The notes below the pieces were generated by a model. The model saw only the letters and a list, made by a program, of their open reading frames with translations. It was not told where the DNA came from and did not search any database. A stretch of 64,000 bases of DNA from positions 1,178,001 through 1,242,000 of the forward strand of contig NZ_SACM01000001.1 of the NCBI RefSeq assembly GCF_004004565.1, read 5' to 3'. Source of the DNA: Inhella crocodyli. GTDB taxonomy: Bacteria > Pseudomonadota > Gammaproteobacteria > Burkholderiales > Burkholderiaceae_C. Both the position numbers and the translations under genes were made by a program. Below, piece by piece: positions 8,044 through 15,841 of this stretch; the first letter of the stretch is position 1, and each line of letters opens with the position of its first letter.

Positions 8044-8529
8044 ATGAAGCTGCTTCACTTTGCCGCCGCCTTCAGCGTGGTTGCCATGGGCGGGATTGCC
8101 AATGCACAGGACCCCAAAGCCACCATCGCCGATCTGGAAGCTCGCCTCGGAAAGATCGGGGCACCCAAGGTCGAAGGCACGGACACCGTGGCTGGAAAGA
8201 CCGTGCCCGCCCTGTTTTTTGGGGATCGCAAGATCAACAACAACTACGAAGTGGTGGATGCCGTCCGGAAAGCGCATGGGGCCACGGCCACCTTGTTCGT
8301 CAAGGACGGCGACGAGTTCATTCGCGTCAGCACCAACGTCCTGACACCCGAAGGCAAGCGGGGCGTTGGCACGGCGTTGGCGCGCAATCCGGCCTATGAA
8401 GCCCTTTCCAAGGGCAGCAACTACTGCGGCACGGTTGACGTGCTAGGAACCTCGTTCGACGCTTGCTACAACCCGATCAAGGTGGCGGGCAAGGTGGTCG
8501 GAGCCACTTATATCGGACACAAGAAGTAA
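8044..8529 (+). CDS. secreted single Cache-like sensor protein
   Basis: A 161-residue exported protein with a clear signal peptide (residues 1-21, cleavage after IANA) and no membrane anchor. The mature part resembles a small periplasmic sCache fold (Cache_3-Cache_2 type): [20 protein letters not shown], then the core containing [17 protein letters not shown], and the closing [12 protein letters not shown] strand. Two Cys near residues 125 and 138 could form a disulfide. AAAGG precedes the start. It lies 53 nt upstream of a chemoreceptor whose own periplasmic domain is of another type, so it may present a ligand to that receptor; this is inference. The fold assignment is moderately sure. Confidence 0.72.
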
Positions 8530-8534
8530 CTCCC

Positions 8535-8556
8535 GAACCCCGCCATGGCGGGGTTC
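8535..8556 (+). terminator. hairpin between the Cache protein and the chemoreceptor
   Basis: GAACCCCGCC (8535-8544) pairs with GGCGGGGTTC (8547-8556), followed by GCTTTATTT. The T-tract is interrupted, so it may attenuate rather than fully stop transcription into the chemoreceptor gene. Confidence 0.55.
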
Positions 8557-8582
8557 GCTTTATTTCATTGGAGTGGCTCGCC

Positions 8583-10160
8583 ATGAATCCCTGGACCAAG
8601 CTGCAATCGGCGTTGGGTCGCCTCCCCATCGGGTGGCAATTGACCTTGGCGTTTGGGGTCATCCTTGTTTTGAGTGCCGTCGCTGGGCTGGGCTCGCTGG
8701 CGGCATTGGCGCGCGTGGAGTCCCAAGCCCAAACGCTGAGTAGCAAGTGGCTCGCTGGCGTGGGAAGCCTGGCGACTGCGCGCAGCGCACTGATTGACAT
8801 GCGGGACTGGGAGATCAAGCACAGCCGAACCTCGGACAAGAGCTACCACAGCGAGTACGAAGACAAGATCAACAGCAGCACTGAGACGCTGGAGAAGTCC
8901 TTGAGTTCCTTCGAGGCCCTCGTCAGCGAATCCGCCGAGCGGGACATGATGAAGAAGCTTCGTGCGGGATGGGAGGAGTACGCCAAGTTCCGCAAGACCG
9001 TCCTCAGCCTGGGGCGGGAGGGGCAACAGACAGACGCCGCCGATGTGAGCGATGGCGCGGCGAGCATGGGTTTTGACAACGCGCTCACGGCCCTGGATGC
9101 ATTGACGCGGCACAGCTTCGATGGGGGACGTCAGGCCGCCCAGGACTCCAAGCGCACGTACGAAACGGCGCGCAATGCCCTTCTAGGCTTCCTCATGCTG
9201 AACCTGGGGATCGGCCTGTTGTTTGCCTTGGCCATCACGCAGGTGCTGGTTCGACAGCTCGGCGGGCAACCCACCACCGCTGCCCAAATCGCCCGTTCAG
9301 TGGCCGATGGCGAACTCAGCCAAAGCATCCGCGTCCGCCATGGCGATGAGGACAGTTTGATGGCCAGCCTGAGCCAGATGCAAACATCGCTTCGCGACGC
9401 AGTCAGCCGCGTGCGGCAGGGGTCAGAGAGCGTGGCCACGGCGAGCGCAGAGATCGCCACAGGGAACCAAGATCTGTCCAACCGCACCGAGCGGCAGGCC
9501 AGTGCCCTTCAACAAACGGCAGCGGCCATAGACCAGTTGAACCAAACCGTCACGGCCAACGCCGACAGTGCCAGCCAAGCCGCGCGCTTGGCCCAGAGTG
9601 CCTCGGACGTCGCTTCGCGCGGCGGCACGGTCGTCACCCAGGTCGTCGACACCATGGGCGGCATCCAAGAAAGCAGCCGCCGCATTGGCGACATCATCGG
9701 CGTGATCGACGGCATCGCGTTCCAGACCAACATCTTGGCCTTGAACGCAGCGGTTGAGGCCGCCCGTGCGGGTGAGCAAGGGCGCGGGTTTGCCGTGGTG
9801 GCGGGCGAAGTCCGCAATTTGGCGCAGCGCAGTGCCGAAGCGGCCAAGGAGATCAAGACCTTGATCGGCACGAGCGTGGAACGCGTTGAACAAGGCACCG
9901 CACTGGTGGGCGAAGCTGGGCAGACCATGCGAGAAATCGTCAATGCCATCGAACGAGTGACCACCATGGTGCAGGAGATCAGCGTCTCAAGCGCCCAACA
10001 GCGTTCGGGCATTCAACTCGTCAGTGACGCGATCTCGGAGATGGACCACGCGACGCAGCAGAACGCGGCGCTGGTGGAGGAAAGTGCAGCCGCGGCGGAA
10101 AGCTTGAAGCAACAAGCCCGTGGTCTGGTCGATGCGGTTGCCGTGTTCCGCGTGGACTGA
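8583..10160 (+). CDS. methyl-accepting chemotaxis protein
   Basis: A 525-residue inner-membrane chemoreceptor. TM1 lies near residues 20-40, a periplasmic four-helix-bundle-type domain spans about 41-198, TM2 lies about 199-222, HAMP follows to about 275, and the cytoplasmic methyl-accepting and signalling domain completes it. The hairpin tip, running from [20 protein letters not shown] to [12 protein letters not shown], sits near residues 377-417 and matches the class that binds CheA and CheW. The C-terminus ends in FRVD with no NWETF-type CheR-binding tail. The start is ATG 8583 with GGAG upstream. It converges on the unusual chemosensory operon. Its ligand is unknown. Confidence 0.93.
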
Positions 10161-10232: not shown

Positions 10233-10253
10233 GGGGCCCGTGGGCCCCTTTTT
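10233..10253. terminator. bidirectional terminator between the chemoreceptor and cheY-like gene
   Basis: GGGGCCC (10233-10239) pairs with GGGCCCC (10242-10248), with AAAAA on the left and TTTTT on the right, so it can end transcription from both convergent units. Confidence 0.8.
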
Positions 10254-10272: not shown

Positions 10273-10638
10273 TCACTCGCACAGCTTCTTGAAGGTGGCG
10301 ATCACCGCGTCGCCCTTGAAGGGCTTGACGATCCAACCCTTGATGCCGGCGGCCTTGCCCCGCTCCTTCATCACCGGGCTGTTTTCGGTGGTGAGCATGA
10401 CGATGTTGACCGTCTTGTTGCCCAACTCGCCGCGGATCTTTTCGGCCATGGTCAGGCCATCCATGTTGGGCATGTTGACGTCGCTGACCACGAGCTTGAT
10501 CTTCGGGTCCATCTTCAGCTTGGCCAGGCCATCGCGGCCGTCCACGGCCGTGGCCACGTCCAGGCCACTCTTCTTCAAAAAGCCGGCGACTTCGTCGCGC
10601 ACGGTGCTGGAATCATCGACAACGAGGACTTGGGCCAT
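10273..10638 (-). CDS. CheY-like single-domain response regulator
   Basis: A 121-residue stand-alone receiver domain. The acidic pocket Asp8/Asp9, the phospho-acceptor Asp53 in VVSDVNMP, the Thr83/Thr84 pair and Lys105 in IVKPF are all present, so it should accept phosphate. There is no output domain, so it acts by binding a partner, as CheY does. It is the last gene of the minus-strand operon, 30 nt after the pseudo-receiver CheX-like gene, and is followed by a terminator. The obvious phosphodonor is the HPt of the operon's kinase. Whether it targets the flagellar motor cannot be told. Confidence 0.9.
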   Translation of the reverse strand: MAQVLVVDDSSTVRDEVAGFLKKSGLDVATAVDGRDGLAKLKMDPKIKLVVSDVNMPNMDGLTMAEKIRGELGNKTVNIVMLTTENSPVMKERGKAAGIKGWIVKPFKGDAVIATFKKLCE

Positions 10639-10668: not shown

Positions 10669-11640
10669 TCAGAACAACTCTAGCTCGCCCGAGGCCAGCA
10701 TCGACTCGACGTTGGCCTGGTTTTCGCGGAAGAGTTCCGGGGACCAGTTCAGGTTGAACACGAAGCGCTGATGCAACTCGATGGGCTCGCCCTGCTGCAG
10801 CAGGTTGTCCCAGATGTGATAGCGGAAACAGAGCTGCGGGTCCTCGGAGCCGAAGGAGATGTAGCGCTGCGGGTGATTGATGACGATGGGCACCTGGGTC
10901 ATCTTGGCCAGGGCCGTGTCGTCGTAGGCGATGAAGCGGTTCTTGAACGCGCCCCAGATCAAATTGGTCGTCTCCGAGAAGACGTTGTTGATGGCCCGGA
11001 TCGAATCCTTGTGCACCGGGTCCATGTCGCCCAACTGGTGCATTTGCAAGCGGCGCAGGCTGCGCTCCTCGACCTGCAGCATCATGTACCCGCGGCACCA
11101 GCTCGCTTCCAACGGGATCAGCGAATACACCTCGCCGTAGATGAGCCGGTCGCGGACGATCATCGGGGCCTCGGCCACCACGCTGATCTCCTTGAATTGC
11201 CCCTTCAGCGCCCCCAAGGTGAGGTCCGAGATGCCACGCACCAAGGCCTCCGGATAAACGAGGCAGAACAAGGACTCGCGCACGACCTCCGTCATCGTGG
11301 CAAGTTCCCCCAGGTGATAGGCATGGCGAACGAAGCGCCGCTCGCTGTCGCTGAGCGTGTGCGGTGCCGCCGTGCGCATCAAGATGGGCAATTCCGGCCG
11401 GATCCGGTTGAGCTCCTGGGCCAGCCGCATGCCACTCAGGCTGTGGCTTTCGAAGCCCTCGGCCAGGAAGACCGCCCCGAGGTCGATGCTGGAGCGCAAG
11501 ACCGGCATCAAGTTGTCGGGCAGCACCTTCACCGGCACCAGGTCGTGCGCCTCGCAGAAGGCGCGCACCTGCTCGGCGGCGGCAGGGTCTTCGTCGAGCA
11601 CCAGCACCTTCACTTGGATCTTGGCTGCAGAGGCTTCCAT
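10669..11640 (-). CDS. pseudo-receiver/CheX-like fusion protein
   Basis: 323 residues. The N-terminal 120 or so look like a receiver fold (KVLVLDEDPAAAEQVRAFCE, then strand-helix alternation), but the phospho-acceptor position reads AVFLAEGF, with no Asp, so it is probably a pseudo-receiver. The C-terminal part resembles the CheX/CheC fold and carries an E-x2-N phosphatase-type motif at Glu223/Asn226 in FSETTNLIWGAFKN. The protein ends in SGELELF, almost the same tail as its neighbour. ATG 11640 is chosen over a TTG 21 nt upstream because GGGAG precedes it. Likely role: dephosphorylating or localising the operon's CheY. The domain call is from motif and context only. Confidence 0.65.
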   Translation of the reverse strand: MEASAAKIQVKVLVLDEDPAAAEQVRAFCEAHDLVPVKVLPDNLMPVLRSSIDLGAVFLAEGFESHSLSGMRLAQELNRIRPELPILMRTAAPHTLSDSERRFVRHAYHLGELATMTEVVRESLFCLVYPEALVRGISDLTLGALKGQFKEISVVAEAPMIVRDRLIYGEVYSLIPLEASWCRGYMMLQVEERSLRRLQMHQLGDMDPVHKDSIRAINNVFSETTNLIWGAFKNRFIAYDDTALAKMTQVPIVINHPQRYISFGSEDPQLCFRYHIWDNLLQQGEPIELHQRFVFNLNWSPELFRENQANVESMLASGELELF

Positions 11641-11657: not shown

Positions 11658-12284
11658 TCAAAACATTTCGAGTTCGCCCGAATCGACCGCGTCTTCCAAC
11701 TGCTCCACCTCGGCGCGGAAATCGACCGTGCTGGTGGCCGCGACGAACAAGGCCGCGTAAAAATCAATGGCCAGTCCGGTGACGTGGAACAGGCGCTTGT
11801 GCCCCGGCCCCAACGCATCCAGGTAGCTCAGCGCCTCCCGGTCCAGCAGGTTGGGCGTCGACATCCCCACGTTGGGAAAGTAGCGCCCCACGTCGCGGTT
11901 CATGGCCCCGACGATGATGTTCCCGCACTCGTTGACTGCGTCCTGGAACGCTTGGTCGGACCAATCGGCCGGGTCCACGCGGTTGAGCCGCGCAAAGTGC
12001 GCCTTGCTGTCCTCGTCCAGGCGGCACATCAAGGCCAGCACCAAGCGGAAGCGGTCGCTGGCGATCGACAGGACCACCGCCTTCTTCTCTTTCATCCGGC
12101 GGGGCAGTTCGGACACGATGGCCACCTGCGCCGACTCGCCTTCGGGCGCCAAGCTCTTGGCCAGGGCCACCGAGGCGATCGTTTCGAAGCTCGTCTTCGC
12201 CTGCTCCGAAAGGGTGCCGGCCGGCGCACTCGGCTTGCCGCCGCGCGACGGACCCTGGGTTGACGGGCGACCCGGGGCACTCAT
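11658..12284 (-). CDS. CheX-like phosphatase-family protein
   Basis: 208 residues. After a Pro/Ser-rich N-terminus of about 25 residues comes a single CheX/CheC-like domain. [20 protein letters not shown] places Glu119 and Asn122 in the E-x2-N arrangement that removes phosphate from CheY in CheX and CheC. It ends in SGELEMF. The start overlaps the stop of the MCP-tip gene by ATGA, so the two are translationally coupled. It probably resets the adjacent CheY. Two CheX-like proteins in one short operon is unusual. The fold assignment is inferred from the motif and position. Confidence 0.68.
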
Positions 12285-13009
12285 GCTTCCAGGGCTCCAA
12301 GGGTGTCACGGGTGCGGTTGGCCACGAGGTCCACGCCGGAAATCGCCGACGTGATCATCTTGGCGCCCGCCTGCAGGTCCTGGAAGGTGGCCGTCGTGAT
12401 CATGTCGTTCTTGAACAGGTTGGCCCGGTACTCCTTGGACAGCTTTTCCGCGCGACCAGCCAGGCTGCGGATCTCGCTGGCGACGACGCCGAAGCCCCGG
12501 CCGTGCTCGCCCGCCCGTGCGGCCTCGATCGAGGCGTTCAAGGCCACGATGACCACCTGCTCCACGATGGCCGCAAACTCTTCGTTGCGCGTGTGCATCT
12601 CGCGGTTGTGCGCCAGCAGGTGGTGCATCTCGCTTTCCCAGCGCTCGAAGGTGCGCACCACGCTGTGCATGTGGCCCATCTGATCGCCCAGGCCTTGCAG
12701 CGTGGACAAGGCGTTGTGGCGCACCTGCGCGTTGCTGTTCAGCAATTGGGTCAGCGCCTGTTCCACGTCTTGACGCGCGGTGTTGCAGTCCCGGGCGGCT
12801 TGCGCTTGCTGCTGGGACAGTTCACGGCGAAGGCTCTCCACCTCCGCCTGCGCCGCATCCCGCTCGGCCTTGAGTTCGGTCAGCACCTCCCGGTCGGGCC
12901 CCGCCTCGGTGGCCATTTCCGTCGGGCCTCCCGCGCGCTGCCGGCACCAAAACCACATGGCCCCGGCGCCCAGAAGCAAGCCCACCAGCCCCGCCATCCA
13001 ACTTGTCAT
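12281..13009 (-). CDS. one-TM protein with MCP signalling tip
   Basis: 242 residues: one N-terminal membrane helix (about 5-21), a coiled coil rich in Ala, Glu and Gln (about 40-90), then a short version of the MCP hairpin. [20 protein letters not shown] followed by [20 protein letters not shown] (about 154-193) closely follows the canonical receptor tip. There is no periplasmic sensor domain, no HAMP, and the methylation helices are too short to hold the usual sites. A strong GGGAGG precedes ATG 13009. The gene lies 27 nt after the kinase gene and overlaps the CheX-like gene. It may dock the kinase into a receptor array or act as its adaptor; this is inference. Confidence 0.8.
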
Positions 13010-13036: not shown

Positions 13037-15841
13037 TCAGCCGGCCACCGCCGCCGCACCCGGCAAGCGGATCACGAACTCGGCCGCACGGAACGCCTGG
13101 CCAGCGTCCGCGCTGCTGCGGAAGCGCAACTCAATGCGACCCGATTCTCGGGCCAAGAAGTCGCGCACCGCGTCCATGCCCACCCCGCGGCCCGACACCT
13201 CGGTCACCACCTCGGCGGTGGAGAAGCCGGGCAAGAAGATCAGGTCGGCGACTTGCTCGTCGGACAACTGGGCCCCCTCATCGATGAAGCGCCGCTCCAG
13301 GGCGCGCTCGCGGATCTTGGCCAGGGCCAAACCACGACCGTCGTCGCTGAGGGTGATGACGAAGTCGTCGTTCTCCACGGCCGCGCGAACGTCGATGCGG
13401 CCCTGGGCGGGCTTGCCTGCGGCCTGCCGCTCGGCAGGGGCCTCGAGCCCGTGATCGACCGCGTTGCGCAGCAGGTGCGTGAACAGGTTGCGCAGCAAGC
13501 CCGAGAGTTGGCTCTTCACCAACAGGCCTTGGTCGTCGATCACGACCTTGGGCGGCTCCTTGCCCAACTCCCGCGCCAAGGAAGGCAGGGACTCGACCAC
13601 GCCCGAGAGGGCTTCCGGCAGTGGCTCGGTGCCCATGCGACGCAGGGTCTGCTGGACGCCCGCGATGGCGGCCATCATGGCGGCCACGTCGTTGCGGTCC
13701 AGGCCGTCGAGTTGGCGCAGCGCCTTGCCCAGGTGGTCCTTGTCGACCATCAAGAACTTCTCGACGTTGCCGCGACGGCCCGGGCCCTTGCGGCCCAGGG
13801 TGTGGTCGTTGATCTTGGCGTACTCCTCGACCAGCGCCTCCACCGCGTTCAACTGCGCCAGAAGCGACGCGGCGTCCCACACGGCGTCCTCGTCCTTGCG
13901 CAGCACGTCGTAGGCGACCTCGGCCTCGTGCACCGCGTTGGTCATGTTCAGCAAACCGTACGTGCGGGCATTGCCCTTGATGGTGTGCATGTTGCGGAAC
14001 AGCAGGTTCACCGCGTCGGCGTTGCGCCCGGTTTGCGCTTCGATGACCTGGCGGTTCTCGACGATGAAGGCCCGCGAGGATTCGACGAAGGACTGGAACT
14101 TCTCCTGACTGACGCGCAGGATTTCCCCGATCAGGTCCAGCTCGCGCTTCTGGCCGGCGGCTTCGGCGGCCAAGCGCTTGTACTCGGTCACGTCGCGCAC
14201 GCAGAGCATGAGCTTCTCGACATTGCCCGCCTCGTCGGCGATGGGGGACCAGCTGAACTCCAGCGACTTCTTCGCCCCACTGCCCGTGAACAACTCGCAC
14301 TCCGACACCAAGAGGTGGGAGTTGAACTCGTAGTTCATGCTGTCTTCGCCGATCACCGACGACATCGCGGTCTCGACTTGCGAGCGCGCGTCAGATCCCA
14401 GGTTGGAGCCGCCGAACAAGAAGTCCATCGCATCGCGACCGGCGATGTTCTTGGTGTCGAAGATCGTCTCCAAGTACGCCGAGTACTCGGGGTGGATCTT
14501 GCTGCCGGCCACGATGGTCAACACGCCTTGCGGCATGTTCTGCAGCATCGACTGGATGTCGTTGGTCTTCTCACGCAAGGCCGCCGTGCGGTCGCTGACC
14601 AAGCCCTCCAAGTTCTCGTTGATGCTGGTCAGGTCGCGCACCAAGCGCTTGTTCTCGACGAAGGTGTCAGAGAAGCGGCGGCTCGCCACGAAGAGCATGG
14701 CGCCCAGGTACAGCGACAACCCGGTGGCGCCCAGGCTGACCGACTGGATCACGCCCATGCCGAGCAAGGCATCGTTGAAGCTCGACACCGAGAACAAGAG
14801 CATGCCCACCAGCATGATCCCCGCGCCTTGCTGGCGCGCCATCACGCCCCTGGCGTAGAAGTAGATGCACGCCACCGACATGGCCAACAGCATCAAGAAG
14901 AACACCGACCGAAGCGCCTGGAACACCGCCAGGTTCTCGTGAACGGCCATGGCGGCAATGCCCAAGACGGGAATGGCCGACACGATGGCAAAGGCCACAT
15001 TGAGCCGCGGGAAGAACTTGTAGAAGTACTGGGCAAACACGAAGAACAGCATCACCCCGTACAGGCCCACGTAGTGCAGGTACGTGAGCGTCTTGGTCGG
15101 GAACAAGGCCATGAAATAGTCGGCCGGAAAGCTGAGGAAGATCCACCCCAGCATCGTGCTCAGCGACGCCACCAAGTACATCGAGTACTTGACCTTGACG
15201 TACACGAGCATGAAGAACAGGCCGAAGAAGAGCGCGATCCAGCCAACGGTCACGCGCATCTCCCCGCCCCACACCGCCCAGCCCACCAAGGTGTTGTCGT
15301 GCGGGTCGTAGCGGTGCAACTCAAACGGCAGTTGGTACACGCCCGTCATCAGCGGCGTGTTCACTCGGATCGCGATGTCCACCTTGCCGTCGGGAATGAC
15401 AAAACGCACCGGCGCGGCCTGGATCGAGTAGTAGCGGTCCACGTTGGCATGGTTCGGCCGGCGGTAGACCTCCTTGCCATTGACGAACACCTGCATGTGG
15501 GCCATGTAGGTGTTGAGTAGCAGCGCCACCTCTTGGCCCACCAAGGCCTGGTTGAACTCGAAGCTGCCGCGGTACCACCCAACTTGGTAGACCTGCTTGT
15601 CGTCGTAGGCCTTCTTCCAGGGCCCCGGGGCTTTGATGACCTTCCAGGCCGAGGTGTCGATCCCGGGCTGGGCGTTGGTCGGCGCGTCATCGCGCGTGAA
15701 CAACCAAGTGCCGGCGAGTTTGACCGGCTGGTCCAACGAGTCGATCCGTTTGCCGCAAGCGTCGCAGCGCGACTGCGCTTGCGCGCCAGAACCCCACACC
15801 AAAAACCAAGCTGCTACCAGCAGAGCGAGCCAACGCATCAT
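13037..15841 (-). CDS. 7TM-DISM sensor, PAS, HPt and CheA-type ATPase kinase
   Basis: 934 residues. A signal peptide (about 1-23) is followed by a CxxC (RCDACGKR), a beta-rich ectodomain to about 195 (7TMR-DISM extracellular type), seven hydrophobic segments (about 198-388), a coiled coil and PAS-like region (about 400-560), an HPt with His619 in NMHTIKGNARTYG, and a CheA-type ATPase (about 760-925) with N box HLLRNAVDHGLE, DDGRGL and GFSTAEVVTEVSGRGVGMDA. It ends right after the ATPase: no CheW-like P5 and no receiver. ATG 15841 is preferred because GGAG precedes it and the signal peptide then starts correctly. It heads the operon. The stimulus is unknown; DISM ectodomains often bind small extracellular molecules. 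Confidence 0.85.
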   Translation of the reverse strand: MMRWLALLVAAWFLVWGSGAQAQSRCDACGKRIDSLDQPVKLAGTWLFTRDDAPTNAQPGIDTSAWKVIKAPGPWKKAYDDKQVYQVGWYRGSFEFNQALVGQEVALLLNTYMAHMQVFVNGKEVYRRPNHANVDRYYSIQAAPVRFVIPDGKVDIAIRVNTPLMTGVYQLPFELHRYDPHDNTLVGWAVWGGEMRVTVGWIALFFGLFFMLVYVKVKYSMYLVASLSTMLGWIFLSFPADYFMALFPTKTLTYLHYVGLYGVMLFFVFAQYFYKFFPRLNVAFAIVSAIPVLGIAAMAVHENLAVFQALRSVFFLMLLAMSVACIYFYARGVMARQQGAGIMLVGMLLFSVSSFNDALLGMGVIQSVSLGATGLSLYLGAMLFVASRRFSDTFVENKRLVRDLTSINENLEGLVSDRTAALREKTNDIQSMLQNMPQGVLTIVAGSKIHPEYSAYLETIFDTKNIAGRDAMDFLFGGSNLGSDARSQVETAMSSVIGEDSMNYEFNSHLLVSECELFTGSGAKKSLEFSWSPIADEAGNVEKLMLCVRDVTEYKRLAAEAAGQKRELDLIGEILRVSQEKFQSFVESSRAFIVENRQVIEAQTGRNADAVNLLFRNMHTIKGNARTYGLLNMTNAVHEAEVAYDVLRKDEDAVWDAASLLAQLNAVEALVEEYAKINDHTLGRKGPGRRGNVEKFLMVDKDHLGKALRQLDGLDRNDVAAMMAAIAGVQQTLRRMGTEPLPEALSGVVESLPSLARELGKEPPKVVIDDQGLLVKSQLSGLLRNLFTHLLRNAVDHGLEAPAERQAAGKPAQGRIDVRAAVENDDFVITLSDDGRGLALAKIRERALERRFIDEGAQLSDEQVADLIFLPGFSTAEVVTEVSGRGVGMDAVRDFLARESGRIELRFRSSADAGQAFRAAEFVIRLPGAAAVAG

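Follow-up and report, generated by a model that had tools for sequence, protein, structure and literature searches.

A receptor-fused CheA-type kinase without a P5 domain and its conserved five-gene signalling module in Inhella crocodyli and related bacteria

Sequence comparison and structure modelling together establish, at the level of predicted domains, a kinase that carries a receptor, a PAS domain and the HPt and P4 domains of CheA on a single polypeptide with no P5, in an operon that is conserved and with an input part that has been exchanged. The gene lies in the window, by which we mean the whole stretch of 64,000 nucleotides from Inhella crocodyli that was analysed. We consider it probable, at roughly two chances in three, that the protein serves as receptor and kinase in a self-contained pathway of the chemosensory class that does without CheW, in which receptor and CheA would be one protein, input would arrive through the PAS and HPt domains, and CheX would reverse the phosphorylation of CheY. 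The order of domains is signal peptide, CxxC, beta ectodomain, 7TM, coiled coil, PAS, HPt, P3-like hairpin and CheA-type P4, and the corresponding features are as follows.

13037..15841, minus strand: receptor kinase of 934 aa (translation without internal stop, Pfam, PDB matches, structure model, hydropathy).
15755..15766, minus strand: CxxC (C26-D-A-C29), directly after the predicted signal-peptide cleavage site (sequence, relatives).
15311..15751, minus strand: beta-rich periplasmic ectodomain, residues 31-177 (structure model; Pfam GH2 sugar-binding-like, below cut-off).
14684..15253, minus strand: seven membrane segments, residues 197-386, 7TMR-DISM_7TM-like (hydropathy, Pfam).
14186..14533, minus strand: PAS domain, residues 437-552, an input node common to the family (Pfam of family cores, structure model).
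13799..14107, minus strand: HPt, CheA P1-like, residues 579-681, with the invariant phospho-acceptor His619 (Pfam, alignment, fold match to 1i5n).
13637..13765, minus strand: short helical hairpin in the P3 position, residues 693-735 (structure model).
13055..13634, minus strand: CheA-type P4 ATPase, residues about 736-929, with N, G1, F and G2 boxes present and G3 (GT) replaced (Pfam, fold match, alignment).

The N-terminal half had been described in the original prediction as a signal peptide, a beta-rich ectodomain and seven membrane segments, and hydropathy agrees for the signal peptide and the membrane segments, the structure model for the ectodomain. The coordinates of that prediction were also right. 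Hydropathy gives a signal peptide at residues 4-22 and exactly seven further segments (197-215, 220-238, 252-270, 282-300, 312-330, 342-360 and 368-386). The 7TM assignment comes from hydropathy and Pfam, the structure model of this part being of low confidence (pLDDT 33-60). With 7TMR-DISM_7TM (PF07695) the window kinase scores 24.4 bits, under the 29-bit cut-off, and one relative passes it with 29.1 bits; at E ≤ 0.01, 8 of 42 relatives' N-termini match the model, the best at 9.3e-9. The ectodomain matches GH2 sugar-binding N-domains below the Pfam cut-off and gave no Pfam match to DISMED1 or DISMED2. The CxxC that had been predicted close to the mature N-terminus is present, and all 11 of the 11 relatives with a full-length 7TM protein keep both of its cysteines (C26 and C29); it may form a disulfide or hold a cofactor.

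Between the membrane and the HPt lies a PAS domain that the predicted layout had missed. It is among the best-conserved parts of the protein across all input types, with H450, P451, E452, G498, E499, D500, N507 and H509 invariant in nine sequences, and it may be a common integration point of the kinase family. In one relative (G009, loci L005/L034) the kinase gene is split by a frameshift in the PAS, through decay or sequencing error.

The catalytic half is built from the parts of a CheA. Pfam Hpt matches residues 585-667 with 29.9 bits (cut-off 24.6) and is found in all 48 family cores, and the modelled domain superposes on the CheA P1 structure 1i5n with Z 13.8 and an rmsd of 2.3 over 103 residues. 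For the ATPase, Pfam HATPase_c matches residues 783-918 with 41.7 bits (cut-off 26.4), the top PDB sequence matches are all CheA (6s1k, 1.2e-31), and the top structural matches of the model are CheA P4 (1i5c, Z 19.2, rmsd 2.8, 177 residues). The P3-like hairpin aligns loosely with P3 of 1b3q, and PF02895 (H-kinase_dim, P3) matched none of the 48 family cores; in a 2023 census of CheA, the P3 dimerisation domain was frequently missed by HMMER (PMC10782961). Together with hydropathy, these Pfam, PDB and fold matches uphold the central claim of the original prediction, that a CheA-type kinase is fused to a 7TM-DISM receptor, the 7TM match being below cut-off here and passing in a relative.

The claim that P5 is absent and that the protein ends shortly after the ATPase fold also stood, since the last aligned P4 residue is approximately 929 of 934 and no CheW-like domain was found at the C-terminus, either by Pfam or by a dedicated model. 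Pfam CheW (PF01584) has no match in the window kinase or in any of 48 family cores. The dedicated CheW/P5 model, for which canonical CheAs and the CheW of E. coli were used, detects as a control all five CheAs presented to it (four from the same genome, one from E. coli) and the adjacent CheW genes. It found nothing in 92 related kinases, in the 4371 ORFs that surround 78 related loci or among the 253 ORFs of the window, and a CheW gene concealed nearby could be rejected over this range. Limits for P4 could be set in 90 of 92 relatives, and all of these share the P5-less C-terminus: counted from a fixed position behind P4, relatives have a median of 9 residues left, compared with 114-267 in 13 control CheAs. 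The same genome encodes four canonical CheAs, each with P5. The kinase appears CheA-like at the level of its domains but has no P5, and on sequence grounds we would not file it as a strict CheA.

The kinase gene is the first of an operon of five, followed by a mini-MCP, a CheX, a pseudo-receiver-CheX and a CheY, with gaps of 27, -4, 17 and 30 bp.

12281..13009, minus strand: mini-MCP of 242 aa, with one N-terminal membrane helix, a coiled coil and an MCP hairpin tip, and no ligand-binding domain.
11658..12284, minus strand: CheX-like phosphatase 1 (CheX1), with the ExxN...G motif in 70 of 70 relatives.
10669..11640, minus strand: CheX2, a receiver-like domain without the phospho-Asp (pseudo-receiver) fused to CheX, with ETxN...G in 56 of 56 relatives.
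10273..10638, minus strand: CheY-type single-domain response regulator, with D8, D9, D53, T83 and K105 invariant in 74 of 74 sequences.
10233..10248, minus strand: intrinsic-terminator-like hairpin directly 3' of cheY (read 10248 down to 10233; consensus match only).

The N-terminus of CheX2 gives only a weak profile match to receivers (27 columns, probability 63%). Its model, by comparison, has a (beta-alpha)5 fold with receiver matches, and on this account we call it receiver-like; the remainder of the protein matches CheX. The best PDB match of the operon CheY is CheY4 of Vibrio cholerae (4h60/4hnr), at 5e-26 compared with about 1e-14 for E. coli CheY. Convergent with the operon, on the plus strand at 8044-10160 of the window, are genes for a small secreted Cache-domain protein and then a 4HB-type MCP, a pair that was not seen at a related Inhella locus (L031).

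A scan of 84,980 genomes gave 464 stretches encoding relatives of the kinase, and the best 78 of the 464 were examined as loci; being the best-scoring, these 78 lean to close relatives and are not independent. Burkholderiales, Neisseriales, Rhodocyclales and Pseudomonadales are represented among them; most occurrences of the module are beta-proteobacterial, and the best full-length kinase relative is from Inhella proteolytica. In the loci with more than 17 kb of sequence, the kinase, mini-MCP, CheX1 and CheY occur together in 47 of 47; 36 of these have all five genes, 11 are without CheX2 only, and none has the kinase alone. The mean column identity of the family core is 60%. The distribution is patchy, with the module in at least 18 of 399 order members and at least 4 of 369 class members (strict cut-off, three candidates scored per genome). 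CheX2 was found in 42 of 401 family members, 29 of which are without the kinase core, although in one of these 29 genomes (G001) the contig ends inside the kinase gene. Where CheX2 occurs without the P5-less kinase it is mostly as a CheX2-CheY pair, often adjoining apparent metK, dapF and xerC (seen at L076-L080, L082, L084 and L085); the presence of this pair in many genomes that have no such kinase suggests that the operon CheY may also serve other kinases. A module copy on a plasmid of Ideonella dechloratans (L187, 8309-11518) adjoins an integrase gene and diversity-generating-retroelement genes (avd, reverse transcriptase). One annotated copy, from Ideonella dechloratans, has the kinase as 'Hpt domain-containing protein' and its neighbours as 'methyl-accepting chemotaxis protein' and 'hypothetical protein', generic labels under which the module is easily overlooked.

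The same core is found behind different N-termini: 72 relatives have two TM segments (mostly 4HB-HAMP), 12 have 7TM and 4 have a Ser/Thr-kinase-AAA-GAF part. The last (L070, L071, L100 and L102) are proteins of 2003-2011 aa in which a eukaryote-like Ser/Thr kinase (PknB), an AAA ATPase and a GAF domain precede the PAS-HPt-P4 core. A tree built from 88 cores requires four changes of the 7TM label, two of them forced by well-supported branches alone, which indicates that inputs have been exchanged during evolution. At an Aquabacterium locus (L092, 1528-9683), two P5-less kinases, one with a 2TM and one with a 7TM sensor, flank one set of mini-MCP, CheX, CheX and CheY. The interpretation of the original prediction was supported in substance but proved too narrow, given that the family uses other inputs besides the 7TM-DISM receptor and that the kinase is part of a conserved operon.

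The mini-MCP is the component that fits least easily with a pathway free of arrays. It has the MCP signalling hairpin, MCPsignal matching 24 of 24 mini-MCPs over part of the model only. Its tip retains the residues with which ordinary receptors bind CheW and P5, and the module encodes neither; the conservation of a tip that normally binds CheW and P5 would be odd if the pathway were array-free. The module could instead be an accessory of canonical arrays, the mini-MCP tip inserting through CheW or through the P5 of a canonical CheA, and the P5-less kinase adding its sensor input to a shared pool of phosphorylated CheY. Such a role would agree with the near invariance of the tip residues LNAxIEAARAGxxGxGF in 76 mini-MCPs, with their strong profile matches to solved MCPs, and with the four canonical CheAs of the genome. 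We nevertheless consider it unlikely. The mini-MCP has no ligand-binding domain, its MCP helix bundle is without the second half, and it carries after the hairpin (residues 201-215) a nearly invariant family-specific motif, NDxITTxTFQDxQAG. It is, moreover, encoded with the kinase in every well-covered locus, with no CheW there. The C-terminal FQDLQAG of the mini-MCP resembles the start of the active-site motif of CheZ, FQDLTGQ; a CheZ-like activity was rejected on finding no CheZ Pfam match and a Gly at the position of the catalytic Gln.

The replacement of the G3 box in P4 may not be neutral. H619 is invariant in the family alignment. Of the ATPase boxes, N, G1, F and G2 vary little or not at all, among them the H/N/D/H/G of the N box and the DDGxG motif. 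The G3 box (GxGT), present in nearly every control CheA, is replaced throughout the family by an insertion of about 7 residues bearing an invariant Arg (window 13037-13200). The original prediction of intact HPt and ATPase boxes thus holds for the HPt and for N, G1, F and G2, and fails for G3. Owing to this replacement, the protein may handle ATP differently or have weak kinase activity. Carried further, the same change would allow the protein to be catalytically weak or dead and to act mainly as a receptor-controlled HPt that exchanges phosphate with CheY, as a sink or a shuttle, and two CheX-type proteins per operon would suit such a dephosphorylation-heavy pathway. We regard this as distinctly improbable, because near invariance of the other four boxes is unexpected for a dead ATPase under long conservation.

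That the protein is an ordinary 7TMR-DISM two-component sensor of the RetS or LadS kind is very improbable. RetS, LadS and SagS do share its input, a beta-rich ectodomain and a 7TMR-DISM_7TM-like membrane part. However, these proteins use HisKA kinases and not an HPt with a CheA P4, and are not known to have an operon of CheX, CheY and mini-MCP. Pfam found no HisKA domain in 48 family cores. In the P4 tree the P5-less kinases form a single group on the CheA side (SH-aLRT 92), apart from EnvZ and PhoR (97), on a long stem that makes any placement among the CheA classes tentative; HMM and fold scores likewise place the ATPase with CheA instead of with HisKA kinases. A HisKA reading was rejected on the domain search and the tree, and with the structure matches and the other sensors carried by most relatives, the simple form of the two-component alternative is refuted. 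Least credible of all is a damaged CheA gene that has lost P5 by truncation, for which only the bare fact of ending after P4 could be cited; truncation or pseudogene formation was rejected because relatives share the same end point, their residues are strongly conserved and the operon stays linked in several orders.

Returning to a self-contained receptor-kinase pathway, its mechanism can be sketched from the predicted architecture. With P5 absent, the sole continuous physical route runs from the receptor through the coiled coil and the PAS to the HPt, from which we infer that sensor input sets the phosphorylation of H619 by P4. Ligand binding on the outside would alter the membrane unit, the change would travel down the coiled coil through the PAS into the HPt, and the signal arriving there would set the rate at which P4 phosphorylates His619. 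The HPt would then hand the phosphate to D53 of the operon CheY, whose output is perhaps not directed at FliM. The CheX proteins would strip the phosphate from CheY, the pseudo-receiver tuning one of them, and the mini-MCP might either act as a membrane tether for the kinase or connect the module with the chemoreceptor arrays of the cell. In this manner, sensory input would have shifted from P5 and the receptor arrays to the N-terminus, turning a CheA into an ordinary one-protein sensor kinase that keeps a fast CheY/CheX output. More tentatively, and at somewhat less than even odds, the module may represent a chemosensory class that needs neither CheW nor an array of its own. Its input would be exchangeable in evolution (7TM, 4HB-HAMP or eukaryote-like Ser/Thr kinase-AAA-GAF), and a mini-MCP that lacks a ligand domain would link the one-protein kinase to chemoreceptor tips or cluster it.

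Several known systems share parts of this arrangement. Like the canonical CheA of E. coli and T. maritima (P1-P5), the kinase has a P1-type HPt, a CheA-type P4 (Z 19 to T. maritima CheA) and a CheY partner; it differs in having no P2 and no P5, a shortened P3-like hairpin, a replaced G3, and a receptor and PAS of its own. According to the 2023 census, 100% of the CheAs surveyed have the CheW domain and all have the four core domains; its text never uses the word 'transmembrane' (PMC10782961). The membrane-anchored (TMX) isoform of CheA1 in Azospirillum brasilense also has a membrane domain N-terminal to CheA but, unlike our kinase, has two P5 domains and binds CheW; it is dispensable for chemotaxis (PMC6759762). 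For the 7TM-DISM input, glucose-6-phosphate is reported as an extracellular signal of SagS (PMC8544897). The operon CheX proteins share the fold and the ExxN active-site motif of the CheX phosphatases of T. maritima, Borrelia and Shewanella (SO_3915), but there are two per operon, one of them fused to a receiver-like domain without the phospho-Asp. CheY4 of V. cholerae, the nearest solved structure to the operon CheY, does not bind FliM and belongs to a cluster that contains CheW (PMC3774744), whereas the module has none.

In the literature searched, mostly that open without subscription, there was no description of P5-less receptor-fused CheA-type kinases, nor of a CheW-less or atypical CheA on this point. 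The five-gene signalling module, which joins a variety of sensors to one common kinase core, is conserved and apparently undescribed. CheA has generally been treated as a sensorless kinase, for which P5, CheW and receptor arrays are the sole means of control. A widespread P5-less family allows one to ask whether the chemistry of CheA can be controlled from its N-terminal side, and bears on the need for P5 and on the role of an MCP tip without CheW. Chimeras with a CheY output could also be drawn readily from this family.
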